Source: a virus
DNA: 24,409 nt
Virus record (IMG/VR): IMGVR_UViG_3300025728_000030
Location: 1-24,409 of that record
Reading direction: 5' to 3' (one strand)
Below the pieces are notes generated by a model. The model did no database searches, was not told where the DNA came from, and saw only the letters and a list, made by a program, of their open reading frames with translations. Both the position numbers and the translations under genes were made by a program. Positions 10,307 through 24,409 of this stretch are shown piece after piece; position 1 is the first letter of the stretch, and the number at the start of each line of letters is the position of its first letter.

Positions 10307-11407
10307 TTAACGTGGCAGCGACAGTAAAAATTTATCAGTCAAGTCAAATAGAAGGTCTGTTGGGTCGCTTCCGTTTTCTTTCATGTGAAGCATTTTACAA
10401 ATTTCTTTGTCTTTTAAGATTAGTATCAGTTTTCCAGACTCACGCATTGCCCCTTGAGCCATTTTTGTCGCACTGTCGTGTGCGCCTTTTCTGGTGATCA
10501 TTATCGCTACACGTCTTAAGGCTTTTTCTAATAAATATTTCTCTGTCGTGAGCACTTGGCCCTGTTTGATAGGTTCTTTGTAGTTTTTAAATTCGAAAAT
10601 TATATACCTGCTATGCATTTGTTGAAGGACGAAATTCCAGAATTCAGTAGAGGGTTTAATGCGGCAGACATAATCAAATCGATTAAGCTCGTCATCTGTT
10701 CTTTTTTGTTTGCTCCAGCCGGCTAAGTGGTCGTTAAAAAGATACTTAAGTATTTCTTCGCATAATTTTTCAAATTGGCTCCAGTCGGAGTTTCCAGGAG
10801 GAAGATTATGCAGCTCCCTGCAGAGTCTAGATCCTGTGTCATCTAAAGGCTCTATTGGTTTTGGGTTCGAAGGTGGAGGTGTCAGAAGTTCCGCTATATC
10901 TTCGACATTAGTCTTGAGTTCAGCTGATCTATCATCGGTGTTTTTTTGATCAGCACTTGAGTTGTAGAACTCTTCAATTGAGACTGAAAGATTGTTGCTG
11001 TCTATTTCTAATAGAGCATATAGCTCCTCAGTAAGAACTGGTGATGAGGATGCGAAATCTAGGAGTAACTGACGATCGACGATAGTTATATCGTATGTTC
11101 TTTCAAGCTGTGTTTTTTGCTCGCTTGTAAGGGCGCAGGACGCTATTAACATACCTTTAATGTCAGTGTTTTTGGTTCGTGCAAATTGGATTTGTCGTGC
11201 TGCAGTACTGAGTAGTTTTAATTGTGCTCTTGGTGTTTTGTAGAATTTTGTCTCTACTGCCCAAGTTTTATTGTTCTTTTTTATTAGTAGATCAATATAA
11301 TCTAAGTTGGACTTGACTATCGTAAATCCCAGGTTTCTTAATATTTTTTCAACGAGTTTTTCGAAATTTCTTCCTGATATACTGGTTTCTTCCATGCTAC
11401 TCACCAT
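10307..11407 (-). CDS. Putative double PD-(D/E)XK nuclease, cargo gene (probable defence)
   Basis: A 366-residue protein (362 if it starts at the ATG at 11395, which has GGTGAG 4 nt upstream). Residues 13-120 look like an Mrr/restriction-endonuclease fold: helix NFEKLVEKILRNLGF, acidic D36/D39 in LDYIDLLI, and E52-T-K54 in WAVETKFYK. Residues 208-320 repeat the pattern: FEKLCEEILKYLF, D244 in RFDYV, and E271-F-K273 in IIFEFKNYK. A polar, proline-rich linker (about 145-190) joins the halves. It is not a P2 structural gene; it sits between S and V, is strongly AT-rich against its neighbours, and lies 56 bp after S on the same strand, so it may be read through from R-S. A TATAAA (11435-11430) might give it its own promoter. 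A phage-exclusion role is inferred; a DNA target is unknown. Confidence 0.72.
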   Translation of the reverse strand: MVSSMEETSISGRNFEKLVEKILRNLGFTIVKSNLDYIDLLIKKNNKTWAVETKFYKTPRAQLKLLSTAARQIQFARTKNTDIKGMLIASCALTSEQKTQLERTYDITIVDRQLLLDFASSSPVLTEELYALLEIDSNNLSVSIEEFYNSSADQKNTDDRSAELKTNVEDIAELLTPPPSNPKPIEPLDDTGSRLCRELHNLPPGNSDWSQFEKLCEEILKYLFNDHLAGWSKQKRTDDELNRFDYVCRIKPSTEFWNFVLQQMHSRYIIFEFKNYKEPIKQGQVLTTEKYLLEKALRRVAIMITRKGAHDSATKMAQGAMRESGKLILILKDKEICKMLHMKENGSDPTDLLFDLTDKFLLSLPR

Positions 11408-11463: not shown

Positions 11464-11922
11464 CTACTTTGTCAGATGGCTTAGTAAGTTGTTTTTAATC
11501 AAATCAATGTCCGCGTCAGTAAATCCCAGTAATTTGCGTTGATCGTAGGCAATATTTGGTGCCCCGCGCGCAGCGCGATCTTTCAAACCATATTGATGCA
11601 CCTTTGAGATCTTCGCAATCCTCCCTACAAATCCGACACTGATAGCACCCCCCTCGCCCTGTATCTTCAGAAAGCTAGTTGTGCGCAGCTTCTGAAACAT
11701 CCTCACCTTCCGCTTGACCCGGTCCGGCTTATCGCGAAGGTTGCGCTTCTTGCGTGGCACATACTTGCTACCGTCAGGGTTCTGCTGGGCAATGATTCGC
11801 TGCTGTTGGCTACGACGCAAAGCTTGGCCGAGACCGCGGGTGAGGTTGTTACGCGACACCGGCTCAAGCTGTGCAAGTAACCCCGCCGCCCACTCCTCCA
11901 ACGCTTCCAGTCGGTTGGTCAT
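11464..11922 (-). CDS. S: Tail completion protein S
   Basis: A 152-residue protein of the P2 gpS / phage virion morphogenesis family (P2: about 150). Conserved features are MTNRLEALEEWAAGLLAQLE at the N-terminus, LRRSQQQRIIAQQNPDGSKY followed by VPRKKRNLRDK, and KVHQYGLKDRA near the end. The ATG at 11922 overlaps the R stop (ATGA). It works with R in finishing the tail end that joins the head. The 5' part is GC-rich like other phage genes. The next gene downstream is the AT-rich nuclease rather than V, so the P2 order is interrupted here. Confidence 0.9.
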   Translation of the reverse strand: MTNRLEALEEWAAGLLAQLEPVSRNNLTRGLGQALRRSQQQRIIAQQNPDGSKYVPRKKRNLRDKPDRVKRKVRMFQKLRTTSFLKIQGEGGAISVGFVGRIAKISKVHQYGLKDRAARGAPNIAYDQRKLLGFTDADIDLIKNNLLSHLTK

Positions 11923-12395
11923 CGCGGGAGTACCCATTCGCTGCCAGTGCCCTGAGTCCCTAGTACCCAGCTCGGATCGCTGAAGTTAGCTACCTTTTGC
12001 GGTTCGCTTGAGTGGTGGGTTGTGTAATTGCCTTGGTCGTCTTTACCCACTACTACACGTTCGGTCAGACATAGGGTCAGGCTCAAATCGACTCTACTGT
12101 TGTCGAGGATATCGACTTCGAATTGGATGCCTTCAGTGGCGCTGCTTAGGTTTTCCAGTATTTCTGGCTGATGGGCACCTAGCCAATCGAGCAGAGGTAG
12201 TATTACGCTATCAGGGTGGCTAGCAAAGTTCGTGAGGATAATTTGGAGGTTGAATATATATTCGAAGGACATTGTTCGCGCGGAAGTGCATCGAACTTTA
12301 CCGTTGTTGATGAAAATAAGGAGTCGTTCCGGCGAATGCTTGAGTTCGTATATACTTGTTAAGAGATGAGCGCGAAGGGCAGAAGGTTTGTTCAT
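11919..12395 (-). CDS. R: Tail completion protein R
   Basis: A 158-residue protein (P2 gpR: about 155) starting MNKPSALRAHLLTSIYELKH, with SPERLLIFINNGKVRCT, FEYIFNLQIILTNFASHPDS and LPLLDWLGAHQPEIL, all characteristic of the family. The frame is open to 12464, but the ATG at 12395 matches the family start. The 5' half is more AT-rich than most structural genes, as is the upstream spacer, perhaps because accessory DNA was exchanged next to it. In P2 the gene before R is a lysis gene on the same strand; here an opposing operon starts 255 bp away, so R and S need a promoter of their own or read-through antisense to that operon. Confidence 0.9.
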   Translation of the reverse strand: MNKPSALRAHLLTSIYELKHSPERLLIFINNGKVRCTSARTMSFEYIFNLQIILTNFASHPDSVILPLLDWLGAHQPEILENLSSATEGIQFEVDILDNSRVDLSLTLCLTERVVVGKDDQGNYTTHHSSEPQKVANFSDPSWVLGTQGTGSEWVLPR

Positions 12396-12627: not shown

Positions 12628-12650
12628 ACTTGGACTAAGGAGGCGGCGAA

Positions 12651-13790
12651 GTGAGCGAGAAGGAAAAAGATGTGTGGATGATTCCTGAAGACTATTTTAG
12701 ACAGAAGTTTAACCATCCAGTAAATATACTGACAGGGGTTAATGGTAGCGGTAAAAGTTACTATCTGAATACTTTGGCTCGAAGCTATTTAGGTTACGGT
12801 TGTGAAGTTATAGCTGTCGCGACATCCGTTTACGATAAGTTTGACTGCAGGTCAAGAAGATTTCATTTTTTAGGGGGTAGGTCAGGTAGAAATATTGTTG
12901 TAAAGACTGTGAAGGAAGCTTTGGTTCGCGCCTTTGGAGAAAAAAGTAACAGCATATCGCACTTGTTAAAAGTTCTTAAGTACACCAGATTTGGTGCCGA
13001 AATCAGAGTGCAATTAGACGGCTTTAATTATGAGGGTCTTTTATCGGCGAAGAAAGGGGAGCATTCAAGTGGCATCTATCAAGCGTTGTCTTTTTTGAGT
13101 TTCTACTTTGATGAACTGAAGAGTCCTGATGTTGTTGTTGTGGACTTAGAAAAGTTTTCTCCCGAGTCGAGCTTGTATAAAGGGCTTGGAGAGGTGATAG
13201 CTAACGAATCAATCCTTAAAAAAATGAAGGTAATTAAGGGTGTGGGGTTGGAGTTGGACAGGAATAGCCAAATAATTCCGCTGTCGGATGCAAGCTCAGG
13301 GGAGTTAATGATTCTCTCAACATTGATGCATATTTCCAGCTATATAGATTCTAATTCTATAATTTTGATTGATGAACCTGAGAATAGTCTGCATCCTCGA
13401 TGGCAGCAGCAATATGTGGAAAATATACTGGATTTGTTTTCGTATTATCAGCCTAAATTAATCATTGCTACTCACTCACCCTTGATAATTCCACTGGAGG
13501 CAGAAGGGGCTGGTATTTATGAAATTTATGATGGTATCGCCTACAAAATCGATCAGCCTTCTAATAATAATGAAGAAGTGCTGGCCGATGTTTTTGGTGT
13601 TGTTACTCCAGAAAATAGATTTCTATCAGATGAAATGGTGCGTTTGCTAAATCGTCTGGATGAAGACAGTTTGCAGGTTCAAGAAGCTTTGGATGTCGTT
13701 AATAACTATCGGCGAAAGTCTATGGATGAAAAAGTGCTAGCTTTTTTAGATGGCGTTGAGGCGCTGATATTGCAGACTAAGGTGGGCTAA
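12651..13790 (+). CDS. ptuA: Septu-like ATPase (PtuA-type ABC/AAA_21 family)
   Basis: A 379-residue soluble protein with a complete ABC-type ATPase set: Walker A GVNGSGKS (29-36), signature-like SDASSGE (212-218), Walker B SIILIDEPE (236-244, D241/E242), D-loop SLHP and switch histidine in THS (274-276). The pattern belongs to the RecF/SMC-like stand-alone ATPases found in anti-phage systems such as Septu (PtuA), where the ATPase controls a nuclease partner. The start is GTG, supported by AAGGAGG 7 nt upstream. It is shorter than many PtuA proteins, the region between Walker A and signature being compact. An HNH gene follows after 5 bp. The operon is AT-rich and runs against the flanking phage genes. 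Septu identity is inferred from the pairing; a related ATPase-nuclease pair is possible. Confidence 0.8.
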   Translation: MSEKEKDVWMIPEDYFRQKFNHPVNILTGVNGSGKSYYLNTLARSYLGYGCEVIAVATSVYDKFDCRSRRFHFLGGRSGRNIVVKTVKEALVRAFGEKSNSISHLLKVLKYTRFGAEIRVQLDGFNYEGLLSAKKGEHSSGIYQALSFLSFYFDELKSPDVVVVDLEKFSPESSLYKGLGEVIANESILKKMKVIKGVGLELDRNSQIIPLSDASSGELMILSTLMHISSYIDSNSIILIDEPENSLHPRWQQQYVENILDLFSYYQPKLIIATHSPLIIPLEAEGAGIYEIYDGIAYKIDQPSNNNEEVLADVFGVVTPENRFLSDEMVRLLNRLDEDSLQVQEALDVVNNYRRKSMDEKVLAFLDGVEALILQTKVG

Positions 13791-13795
13791 TAATT

Positions 13796-14428
13796 ATGCC
13801 CAATCGACCGAGATTCTCAGCTGGCGAAATCGCTTCGATGCGTGATGCATCACGTATAGGGCATACTGCGTGGGATAACAATCCTAGACTCGATAGCTTA
13901 AAGCAGAAATTAAAGGAATTTGGCAAACTCAAAACTTCCCATCATTGTTGTTACTGTATGAGGGATCTATATGGTGAATTTAATATGGTGCTTGATATAG
14001 AGCATATATTGCCTAAGTCTAAGTTCCCTAAGTTTATGTTTACGGGAAGAAATTTAGCAGTTTCGTGCAAGCGTTGTAATATGTTTATTAAAAAATCGAG
14101 GATTGACTTTTTGGTTCCTCCTCTGGTTGTTGGGCGAGAAAGAGTTTTCAAGTCGAGATACTATCAGTTTATTCATCCTAATCTAGATAACTATGAGGCA
14201 CATCTGCTGCGAAGTGCTGTTCACGCTGGAAGAAAAGTTATAGTCAAGTATAGAGTTGTCAGCGGTAGCGCAAAAGGACGATTCACATATGATTATTTTA
14301 AACTTGAGTATTTAGAGCGTAATAGTTTTGATAGTGCTCAGGGAGGGAGAGGAAGGCCGGAGATTAGAAATGCAATTATCGAATCGGATTTCAATGCTCT
14401 TGTTGAATCCATGCTTTACGGAAGATAA
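13796..14428 (+). CDS. ptuB: Septu-like HNH nuclease (PtuB-type)
   Basis: A 210-residue protein with an HNH/zinc-finger core: C51-C-Y-C54, then D67-I-E-H70 followed by ILPKSKFPKF, then N86 in RNLAVS and C91-K-R-C94-N95. This CxxC...EHxxPK...N...CxxCN order is that of PtuB and of other HNH nucleases paired with SMC-like ATPases. The start is 5 bp after the ATPase stop, with AAGGTGG about 10 nt upstream, so both are made from one message. The C-terminal 90 residues (KVIVKYRVVSGSAKGRFTYD) have no feature I recognise. The stop is only 6 bp from the convergent stop of gene X. In Septu the ATPase and HNH protein form a complex that degrades DNA on infection; here that role is inferred. Confidence 0.8.
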   Translation: MPNRPRFSAGEIASMRDASRIGHTAWDNNPRLDSLKQKLKEFGKLKTSHHCCYCMRDLYGEFNMVLDIEHILPKSKFPKFMFTGRNLAVSCKRCNMFIKKSRIDFLVPPLVVGRERVFKSRYYQFIHPNLDNYEAHLLRSAVHAGRKVIVKYRVVSGSAKGRFTYDYFKLEYLERNSFDSAQGGRGRPEIRNAIIESDFNALVESMLYGR

Positions 14429-14434
14429 GGATGT

Positions 14435-14647
14435 TTAAATCCAGAGGAAAACAGTTAGCAAGCGTTGTTCTATCATAATGCTTTCGGGCATTTTTATTAG
14501 AAGCTCTTTAGGCAAAATCGAACCGTGGTCAGCCAATCCTGGGTTGGCTTCGAGCACCGCCTCAGTCACACCAGCGGTGCGACCGTAATGACGCCAGCAA
14601 AGCGCGTCGACGGTGTCATTCTGCTGGGTGCGTATGCTGACGGTCAT
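14435..14647 (-). CDS. X: Tail protein X
   Basis: A 70-residue protein (P2 gpX: 67), starting MTVSIRTQQNDTVDALCWRH and continuing YGRTAGVTEAVLEANPGLAD, a LysM-like fold typical of the family. The last 25 residues (KELLIKMPESIMIEQRLLTV) are more AT-rich and unlike the usual proline-rich end, close to the boundary with the inserted operon. The ATG overlaps the L stop (ATGA). In P2 the next gene downstream is the holin; here the next thing is the stop codon of the opposing HNH gene, 6 bp away. Confidence 0.88.
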   Translation of the reverse strand: MTVSIRTQQNDTVDALCWRHYGRTAGVTEAVLEANPGLADHGSILPKELLIKMPESIMIEQRLLTVFLWI

Positions 14648-20871: not shown

Positions 20872-21864
20872 TCATTTGGCATCGTGGAAAATATCCTGAG
20901 CTTTTCCGGTCGCTACGTAGTCGGCGAGACCTTGAAGTCGTCGATAATATGCGAGGACGATTTTGATAGCCGATAGCGGATCTTCGCTGGCGAGATCAAG
21001 AATATGTGAAGTGCTGTCGTCTAGCCCAAATGCCTTACAAGTATCGTCCAATAATTCGACAAGTTCAGTGATATCTTGATCTGAAAGCGCAATGTCAGTG
21101 TCTGATTTACTAAGCCAGCCAAGGTTCTGAAGATAACTGTATGCTTTTTTGTAGGCTTCGCGAGCAGGGCTTCCATCATCGTTGATGCCGTTCACAAGTT
21201 CTCGAATCGAATCGGCAACATCACCATTCATGTAGAATTTTATTTCACCAGGAGATGCGTAGTCAATTTTCCGGATCGCAGCTCTATCTTCATTTGGTAT
21301 GTTTCTATAAAGCTCTTTGAAAAAGTTTACGGAGCTAAATCCGCCTCTCCAAGGATGCTTGTGAAATACAGCGTTAATTTTGTTGGTAGCCGCTTGGCCT
21401 GTGGCGCCAAGAAGCGCAAATCCGAGAGAGTAGCAATCCTGTACTAAGTCAGAGAATCGCCTTAAATCGCTAATTTCCCACTGGCCATCTATGTCTACTA
21501 CTTTGAAATCACTGTTTAAGCTTTCTTCTGCGTGTCCTGGGATAAACATACCTGGTTCAGGTAGAGCATCGGATGGGAGTACAGCTGAGCGTTTGGTTTC
21601 GAATTCTTCGCCAACACTTCCCCACACCTCTCCAAGCTCATATTTTCCCTTGTGGAGTTTGGTTACGGCATAATGCACATCAATTTTCTCGGCATATAAC
21701 TGCTTGAGGTGCTCAGTTTTTATTCTGGAAAAATAAAACTTAAATGCTGTTTTACCATCATCATAGTTAATTCCTAAATACTTGTCTCCGTTTTTTGCCT
21801 TCGCGAGCGCAATCAATGGAATATCATAGCTAAGCAATATTTTTTCTATCGTTAGCTTAGCCAT
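20872..21864 (-). CDS. Unrecognised accessory protein, second gene of a cargo pair
   Basis: A 330-residue protein starting MAKLTIEKILLSYDIPLIAL. GGAGG 6 nt before the ATG at 21864 strongly supports this start over an in-frame one at 21888. The first 100 residues look like a beta-rich domain (KNGDKYLGINYDDGKTAFKF YFSRI); the rest is mostly helical, ending in ILDLASEDPLSAIKIVLAYY. I see no signal peptide, membrane segment, Walker motif or nuclease motif, and do not recognise the family. The start overlaps the upstream gene by 8 nt (ATGGCTAA), so the two are coupled. The pair lies beyond the portal, where P2 carries tin/old and phiCTX its cytotoxin gene, so a cargo role in defence or host conversion is likely but unproven. 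Base composition is clearly more AT-rich than in the structural genes. Confidence 0.8.
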   Translation of the reverse strand: MAKLTIEKILLSYDIPLIALAKAKNGDKYLGINYDDGKTAFKFYFSRIKTEHLKQLYAEKIDVHYAVTKLHKGKYELGEVWGSVGEEFETKRSAVLPSDALPEPGMFIPGHAEESLNSDFKVVDIDGQWEISDLRRFSDLVQDCYSLGFALLGATGQAATNKINAVFHKHPWRGGFSSVNFFKELYRNIPNEDRAAIRKIDYASPGEIKFYMNGDVADSIRELVNGINDDGSPAREAYKKAYSYLQNLGWLSKSDTDIALSDQDITELVELLDDTCKAFGLDDSTSHILDLASEDPLSAIKIVLAYYRRLQGLADYVATGKAQDIFHDAK

Positions 21865-22321
21865 TAAGAGCCTCCACCTTCCCAGCAATAGCCGTCGGAT
21901 CGACCGAGCTATATGGCCACCAATTTACATGCGTGGGCTGGTCTTTATGCCATATACCGTAGGTTTTACTGAACGGCACCTCAACGGCATGAGTAAACTT
22001 CATTTTCACCATTCTCGGACTTTTCGCCGCGGCCCGACAGGCGGCCAGCGAAGTCATTAGAGATACAGATCTAGCTGAACACTCATCTGGATAATTATGT
22101 GTTGAAGAGCGTTTTCGCTGAGAGTCGAAATCGCTAGCGCTATGGCTGCCAGATCTCAAGAGCCTCCAAAGCGTGGGTTCGCTCGGCGCAGTTACCTTCG
22201 CTGGTGGGCAGCTATCAGGGAGGGGCTCGAGGAAGTCAAATCCATTTGTTGACATAAAGCGGTGTCCGATAGTGGCGTTGTGCTTGGCGCGCATTCTCAG
22301 CGACGATATAGAAAGCGTCAA
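21857..22321 (-). CDS. Unrecognised small accessory protein, first gene of the cargo pair
   Basis: Up to 154 residues from a TTG at 22321; in-frame ATGs at 22294 (MRAKHNATIGHRFMSTNG) and 22255 (MSTNGFDFLEPLPD) are alternatives and none has a good Shine-Dalgarno. The sequence has a proline-rich start (FLEPLPDSCPPAKVTAPSEP), a central DECSARSVSLMTSLAACRAA, and an end rich in aromatic residues (VNWWPYSSVDPTAIAG). I do not recognise a named domain. It overlaps the next gene by 8 nt and both should act together. The best ribosome-binding site upstream (AAGGAG, 22352-22347) leads instead to a four-codon reading frame, so the start is uncertain and a small frameshift in the 5' end cannot be excluded. 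Confidence 0.65.
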   Translation of the reverse strand: MTLSISSLRMRAKHNATIGHRFMSTNGFDFLEPLPDSCPPAKVTAPSEPTLWRLLRSGSHSASDFDSQRKRSSTHNYPDECSARSVSLMTSLAACRAAAKSPRMVKMKFTHAVEVPFSKTYGIWHKDQPTHVNWWPYSSVDPTAIAGKVEALNG

Positions 22322-22931: not shown

Positions 22932-23414
22932 TTAGGCCTTACGGTTAACCTCCTGCATGTACTCGGTCCAGTCAGCATATGGCGTAACGTATAGGTGATG
23001 GCTGTCCAGCCCGGAAGCCGGTGGCCAGGTTACGTGTTTACTGATCACAAAAATCTCGCGGTCAGGATTGAAGTAGTAGCCTGTTACGACGTTCCGACCA
23101 TAAATGCCTGGAGTCGGCGCTCCCGTCATCGTTTCGGGATGGGAGTGCTTTTTCGTCCAGATCACCTCATTTTCGATCCAGCGTTTTATCTCCATAAATT
23201 TTTCATTCATTTCATCTGGCTTGGAAAACCAGCTGTTGAACAGCTCGGACGCGTTTTCTTGGACGCTTTCCTCGAGCGGGATACCGCCCAATGTGAGGCT
23301 GCTCAGGTACTGGGTGACGGCTTTGGTAATGATAGAGTTGCGCGGTTCTCCCGTGCGAAGCGCCCAAAGATCCAGTTGGTCTCTGACAGTGTCATTCAGT
23401 CGTACGGATAACAT
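22932..23414 (-). CDS. Ribbon-helix-helix regulator with an unknown C-terminal domain
   Basis: A 160-residue protein. Residues 2-38 (LSVRLNDTVRDQLDLWALRT, GEPRNSIITKAVTQYL) have the pattern of a CopG/Arc ribbon-helix-helix DNA-binding domain: a short strand, helix, turn, helix. Residues 50-160 are not recognised; they include FNSWFSKPDEMNEKFMEIKR and GRNVVTGYYFNPDREIFVIS and are much longer than the tail of a simple antitoxin. The ATG at 23414 has only a weak GAGA upstream. A promoter with two overlapping palindromes lies 30-85 bp upstream, strongly suggesting that the protein represses its own gene. It stands alone, with no partner toxin next to it. It could be an antitoxin-like regulator, a control protein for the cargo, or a phage early regulator. 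Confidence 0.8.
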   Translation of the reverse strand: MLSVRLNDTVRDQLDLWALRTGEPRNSIITKAVTQYLSSLTLGGIPLEESVQENASELFNSWFSKPDEMNEKFMEIKRWIENEVIWTKKHSHPETMTGAPTPGIYGRNVVTGYYFNPDREIFVISKHVTWPPASGLDSHHLYVTPYADWTEYMQEVNRKA

Positions 23415-24077: not shown

Positions 24078-24100
24078 TTCGAATCTCTCCTTCACCGCCA
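24078..24100 (+). other. Right attachment site: 3' end of a tRNA gene (probably tRNA-Ser)
   Basis: TTCGAATCTCTCCTTCACC followed by GCCA is the T-loop, the 3' T-stem strand, the 3' acceptor strand and the encoded CCA end of a tRNA. The bases just upstream (GCGGT) do not pair with CTCTC, and no matching 5' half (expected to start GGTGAAG) lies upstream, so this is only a 3' remnant. The pattern fits Pseudomonas tRNA-Ser, the known target of phage phiCTX. The intact tRNA should be at the other end of the prophage. The remnant marks the boundary between phage (left) and chromosome (right). Confidence 0.8.
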
Positions 24101-24110
24101 CATTCAGTAC

Positions 24111-24148
24111 ACAAAACCCCTGATTTCGAAAGAAATCAGGGGTTTTGT
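24111..24148. terminator. Intrinsic terminator of the interrupted tRNA locus
   Basis: A perfect 17-bp stem (24111-24127 with 24132-24148) closed by a GAAA loop. The right arm ends in GGGGTTTTG and the left arm begins ACAAAACCCC, so both strands have a short T-run. It lies 10 bp after the tRNA 3' end, the normal place of the tRNA terminator, and is chromosomal DNA. Confidence 0.85.
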
Positions 24149-24224
24149 GGTTTCTGGTGTCTGGATTTTAATCCGCTCCGCAAGTGATCCGTGCAGGTGC
24201 TCAGCCTGATTCGCCATAGCACAT

Positions 24225-24230
24225 TACAAT
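24225..24230 (+). promoter_or_regulatory. Possible -10 element of the ybjQ-like gene
   Basis: TACAAT matches 5 of 6 bases of the -10 consensus and lies 34 bp before the start codon. No clear -35 is seen at 17 bp. It would place the transcription start near 24237. Confidence 0.35.
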
Positions 24231-24264
24231 CGCCGTTTTATCAGTAGAAAAAAGGATTGCTTCC

Positions 24265-24409
24265 ATGATCATCTCCACCACCCACGCCATTGAAGGCCGA
24301 CAGATCACCGCGTACCTGGACATTGTCAGCGCGGAGTCGGTGCAGGGCGTCAACGTGATCCGTGACATGTTTGCCGGCATGCGCGATTTTTTTGGTGGGC
24401 GCTCGCAGA
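24265..24409 (+). CDS. YbjQ/DUF74-family protein, N-terminal part (chromosomal, runs off the right edge)
   Basis: The first 48 codons read MIISTTHAIEGRQITAYLDI, VSAESVQGVNVIRDMFAGMR, DFFGGRSQ. This is the start of the YbjQ (heavy-metal-binding-like, UPF0145) family, about 105 residues long, whose hallmark is G-N-x-x-RDxFAGxRDxxGGRS. The function of the family is not established; members form pentamers. The start is supported by AAGGA 8 nt upstream. It is the first chromosomal gene past the attachment site and helps identify the host as a Pseudomonas. Confidence 0.88.
   Translation, partial: MIISTTHAIEGRQITAYLDIVSAESVQGVNVIRDMFAGMRDFFGGRSQ

Follow-up and report, generated by a model that had tools for sequence, protein, structure and literature searches.

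The closest described relatives of the locus reported here are type I Septu, in which the ATPase PtuA is paired with the HNH nuclease PtuB, and the retrons of type I-A. In the Septu system EcB88, Walker and HNH mutants abolish immunity, both enzyme activities being needed, and tRNA-Tyr is cut in its variable loop with an abortive outcome (PMC13096335). The PtuAB proteins of retron-Eco7 deplete tRNA-Tyr, and the Septu of E. coli ATCC25922 has been reported to act on nicked DNA (PMC11555353). The cos-proximal Q-A interval of P2-like phages is a known hotspot of defence cargo (PMC9122126). Septu has also been reported from P4 satellites and from further prophage hotspots, one of them in a P2-related phage of Vibrio.

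We analysed a stretch of 24,409 nucleotides (the window), which is a complete IMG/VR record and itself a fragment of a prophage. A first-pass annotation, made from the letters alone, had read two adjacent plus strand genes at 12651-14428 as a Septu operon. Both open reading frames were found at these coordinates:

12636 to 12650, plus strand: Shine-Dalgarno AAGGAGG and spacer ahead of ptuA, from the sequence
12651 to 13790, plus strand: ptuA, ABC-type ATPase, 379 aa, GTG start
13796 to 14428, plus strand: ptuB, HNH nuclease, 210 aa, ATG start

The two genes are separated by 5 nt on the same strand, and the stop codon of ptuB lies 6 nt from that of the following gene X. Other features that had been noted at first pass were confirmed. 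The strong Shine-Dalgarno AAGGAGG stands about 8 nt 5' of the GTG, the G+C content of the ptuAB stretch is about 40% against 58-63% in the phage background, and the operon lies on the strand opposite to that of genes R, S, X and L. In a promoter and terminator scan, sigma-70-like matches upstream of ptuA were not more frequent than in shuffled sequences.

The proposed PtuA/PtuB pairing was upheld by profile searches, in which the Septu models scored far above rival families. PtuA matched the PADLOC PtuA1 model PDLC00273 over residues 24-376 (8e-98) and PtuB the PtuB1 model PDLC00354 over residues 2-203 (7e-82); Pfam gave general domains only (AAA_21, 2e-17, for PtuA; HNH, 0.001, for PtuB). All the motifs listed at first pass are present and conserved in relatives, namely GVNGSGKS, SSGE, LIDEPE and THS in PtuA and CCYC...DIEH...N...CKRCN in PtuB. 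In an alignment of 40 PtuA sequences the residues G29/N31/G32/G34/K35, S215/S216/G217, D241/E242/P243/E244 and H275 were invariant, which correspond to the Walker A, signature, Walker B and H-loop motifs; in an alignment of 34 PtuB sequences the same was true of C51/C54, E69/H70, N86 and C91/C94/N95. PtuA relatives in the contig collections were retrieved with an alignment as query, a single-sequence PtuA query having given none. Across public collections, an ATPase-HNH pair of this family, adjacent and on one strand, was found at 124 loci, with a gap of 35 nt or less between the genes in 113 of them. Both proteins thus have their best matches in Septu and recur together, and the E-values combined with the same-strand pair at 124 loci place the identity of ptuAB far beyond chance. 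On profile and motif evidence, ptuAB is a member of the known type I Septu, which it resembles in genes, order, length, motifs and adjacency; what distinguishes the present pair is its location in the X-R interval of a P2-like prophage. The suggestion that PtuA, being short, may represent a compact or divergent branch did not hold, since 379 aa is an ordinary length: the top two PADLOC PtuA1 models are 375 and 386 positions long, and among 118 full-length relatives 50 measure 320-415 aa.

Other ATPase-based defence pairs also gave matches. PARIS (AriA/AriB) was represented by AriA at 3e-21, which is also the nearest PDB chain to PtuA by sequence (6e-9), and the ATPase-HNH candidates PDC-M01 by PDC-M01A at 3e-17 and PDC-M01B at 3e-10. 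However, the PtuA1 and PtuB1 scores are far above all of these and cover nearly the full length of both proteins. AriB is a TOPRIM protein, and no such partner accompanies PtuA, whose neighbour is the HNH protein PtuB. That ptuAB should belong to either of these families is hardly credible. Retrons of type I-A (Eco7/Ec78, Ec83) share with ptuAB the ATPase and HNH effector pair and its fold, but have a reverse transcriptase and msDNA, neither of which was found here, and a PtuA of about 550 aa compared with 379 aa. The retron PtuA model scored 49 bits against a cut-off of 500, and this candidate was rejected. No reverse transcriptase occurs among the scanned window proteins, and in particular no PtuC precedes ptuA, the flanks consisting of P2 structural genes and an Mrr-like gene, in agreement with the earlier description of a non-retron Septu.

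Folds were predicted with AlphaFold, with a mean pLDDT of 86 for PtuA and 91 for PtuB. A Foldseek search with the PtuA model returned PtuA chains from retron I-A and Septu complexes in all of rows 1-49, and the first five rows for PtuB were PtuB/HNH chains of retron/Septu complexes, with weak E-values. In VIA-align the PtuA rows reached Z scores of 12-13 and one ABC transporter 12.6. Because this transporter ties the PtuA chains by Z, fold alone is insufficient to prove Septu, and the identity is established by the sequence profiles. PtuA shares only about 15-27% sequence identity with the PtuA proteins of known structure, so that target and trigger are not transferable from them.

The window carries genes in P2 order (U, T, FII, FI, G, H, I, J, W, V, S, R, X, L, M, N, O, P, Q), with P2-like markers that include the capsid (PF05125, 3e-147), small terminase, GPL, GpX, GpR, GpS and tail genes. 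Among annotated phages the window is closest to Sirocco and Dobby, two Citexvirus phages of Pseudomonas, with about 70% DNA identity over X-L. At the right end, positions 24078-24409 are 94% identical to Pseudomonas chromosome, the tRNA-Ser gene being located at 1434-1523 of the matching locus (L311), and Sirocco too terminates at a tRNA-Ser. This match indicates that a Pseudomonas tRNA-Ser gene is the integration site of the prophage. As far as gene content and attachment site tell, the carrier is a Peduoviridae (P2-like, Citexvirus-related) prophage of a Pseudomonas host. Judged from Dobby, about one third of the prophage (gene D, regulation, replication and integrase) is off the contig, and the integrase and replication part probably lies past the left contig end. 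The flanks of the operon and the attachment site are as follows:

11919 to 12395, minus strand: gene R, tail terminator, left flank of the slot (PF06891, 3e-43; ATG at 12395, starts aligned with relatives)
14435 to 14647, minus strand: gene X, baseplate/tail protein, right flank of the slot (PF05489, 5e-24)
24078 to 24100, plus strand: 3' end of tRNA-Ser(GGA), attachment site, from Pseudomonas genome comparison; chromosome follows

The first-pass annotation was thus right to place the Septu operon in a P2-like prophage, and overlooked that the operon occupies the interval of the lysis genes. In Dobby and Sirocco the X-R interval contains holin(s), an endolysin and a LysB/Rz protein, and lysis genes were located at X-R in all nine of the first-found IMG/VR relatives (L006-L014). 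In the window and in a second contig, L002, ptuAB sits where these relatives keep the lysis cassette, and the cassette is missing: homologues of the Dobby/Sirocco lysis genes were detected in neither, and no recognised lysis gene was present anywhere in the visible 24 kb of the window. An assembly or binning artefact might be suspected from the fragmentary nature of the virus record and from the deviating base composition of the operon. However, L002 is a separate contig, colinear with the window over 7.8 kb at 97% identity, in which both junctions are identical in layout. Each of L, M and N differs between the two by 44-62 nt, which shows that L002 does not simply duplicate the assembly of the window; its matching junctions indicate that the arrangement is not an assembly error, and we regard an artefact as extremely improbable.

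We surveyed 101 distinct X-R intervals. An endolysin was recognised in 82 of them, two contained the Rz protein only and 17 were without Dobby-type lysis genes, a recognised endolysin being missing in 19 of the 101 loci. The 17 include loci with an X-R spacing of 16-32 nt, intervals of about 400 nt, a small number holding different cargo, and the interval with Septu. L173, the one interval scanned from the 400-nt group, encodes a holin, and a PADLOC scan of the cargo in two other non-lysis slots (L175/L306 and L198) revealed no known system. In Pseudomonas genome loci fetched by gpR, a LysB/Rz homologue or an endolysin adjoined R in 30 out of 30, including one deletion remnant with Rz only (L318). 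The latter result suggests that isolates do not commonly lack the lysis genes, and together with the survey it indicates that the interval is variable and that loss of the lysis genes is a minority state. At L318 and L312 (G212), an apparent deletion remnant of a related prophage was observed in a Pseudomonas genome near a sequence similar to the right end of the window; short L and P pieces adjoin there, and R has an in-frame stop.

Because the operon occupies the interval of its relatives' lysis cassette, the prophage is probably without lysis genes of its own and may be unable to lyse its host. As the contig is a fragment, lysis genes could also lie on the unseen part; the cassette would then have moved rather than been lost, with Septu filling the free interval. 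The third of the prophage that is off the contig leaves room for such a move, against which stands the observation that the seemingly near-complete relatives without an X-R cassette (G001, G002, G005, G007) showed no recognised endolysin elsewhere. We consider relocation unlikely, although it deserves to be kept in mind. No endolysin was detected in the lysis-less relatives in a PF11860 search, nor among 59 leftover ORFs in Pfam and PHROG searches, considering the best 25 of 30 and the best 25 of 37 families. The corresponding records (L163/G001, L219/G002, L173/G005, L175/G007) are P2-like, with capsid, tail, replication and regulatory genes and without a recognisable endolysin, and the X-R distance is 16-32 nt in L163/G001 and L219/G002. 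A 283-aa ORF beside gene D, suspected to be a lysis gene in the lysis-less relatives, turned out to be a cytosine methylase. Rather speculatively, a lineage of P2-like Pseudomonas prophages could have given up its lysis cassette and reused the vacated X-R slot for host-protective cargo such as Septu; we hold this to be doubtful. If it were true, these prophages would persist as defence elements, or would depend for their spread on lysis supplied elsewhere, by another prophage or by the host tailocin lysis cassette. In the literature consulted we found no account of the lysis slot as a cargo site, which is weak evidence and not proof of novelty.

Taken as a whole, the data are very probably best explained by a type I Septu anti-phage cargo, with a nuclease presumably restrained by PtuA, located in the lysis slot of a Peduoviridae prophage of Pseudomonas. 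By analogy with the studied relatives, PtuA most likely assembles into an ATP-binding oligomer to which PtuB is bound in an inactive state. Infection by another phage would be sensed through some trigger that releases the PtuB HNH nuclease, and the freed PtuB would cut nucleic acid, either phage DNA or host tRNA. The infected cell would stop before new phage is made, an abortive outcome from which the remaining lysogens, and hence the prophage, would benefit. Its own Shine-Dalgarno and its orientation against the late operon suggest, by analogy with the studied relatives, that ptuAB is probably expressed in the lysogen while the late genes are silent. Compared with L002, ptuAB of the window has 7 synonymous and 2 amino-acid changes, a small count that fits selection for function. 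An operon that has decayed or fallen silent and no longer serves in defence would agree with promoter-like matches that do not exceed chance; nevertheless, both frames are full length with all motifs intact, the Shine-Dalgarno is strong and amino-acid changes relative to L002 are few, albeit on that small count, which makes silent cargo quite improbable. With its PtuA near 380 aa, the present branch is unlike the E. coli and retron forms studied so far, so that ptuAB could usefully test which of tRNA and DNA is the common target. The interest of the locus lies in its position and in the lysis-less relatives more than in the operon itself. Should the position hold in complete genomes, defence cargo would have replaced phage lysis genes, which bears on how prophage and host are tied to each other and on the persistence of lysis-less P2-like prophages.

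The closest PtuA proteins are those of L100 (52% identity) and L101 (43%), which group with the present one with clade support of 100/97; the corresponding PtuB identities are 65% and 57%. The Septu operons of L100 and L101 are located between S and V of P2-like phages rather than between X and R, and L100 retains an endolysin beside R, unlike the window. The S-V slot also houses the Septu operons of further P2-like phages (L103, L107-L111), which are more distantly related. PtuA-like genes, mostly adjoining a PtuB-like gene, were observed in the S-V interval of L103, L107-L111, L139, L140 and L190. This interval looks like a defence cargo slot separate from the Q-A hotspot. The simplest reading is that the ptuAB lineage circulates among P2-like phages and has changed slot, with direction and timing inferred. 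Like the Q-A hotspot of E. coli P2-like phages (PMC9122126), the present locus is a case of defence cargo in a P2-like prophage; here, however, Septu lies between X and R, inside the late operon, and the gpQ-proximal stretch holds other cargo. In the window, the S-V slot is filled by an Mrr-like gene. The additional genes are:

10307 to 11407, minus strand: Mrr-like, AT-rich cargo gene between S and V (N-terminal Mrr_cat, PF04471, 1e-11)
20872 to 21888, minus strand: AT-rich gene near gpQ (match to PD-T4-10_B, 9e-42)
22932 to 23414, minus strand: 160-aa ORF near the attachment site (weak match to a RelB-type antitoxin, 0.033)

A PD-T4-10_A partner for the gene near gpQ was not recognised in the next ORF (21857-22321). 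The Mrr-like gene also gave a C-terminal match to the defence candidate PDC-M36A (3e-12) and a match to PHROG 31260 (5e-96), and the prophage may carry three defence-like cargoes.
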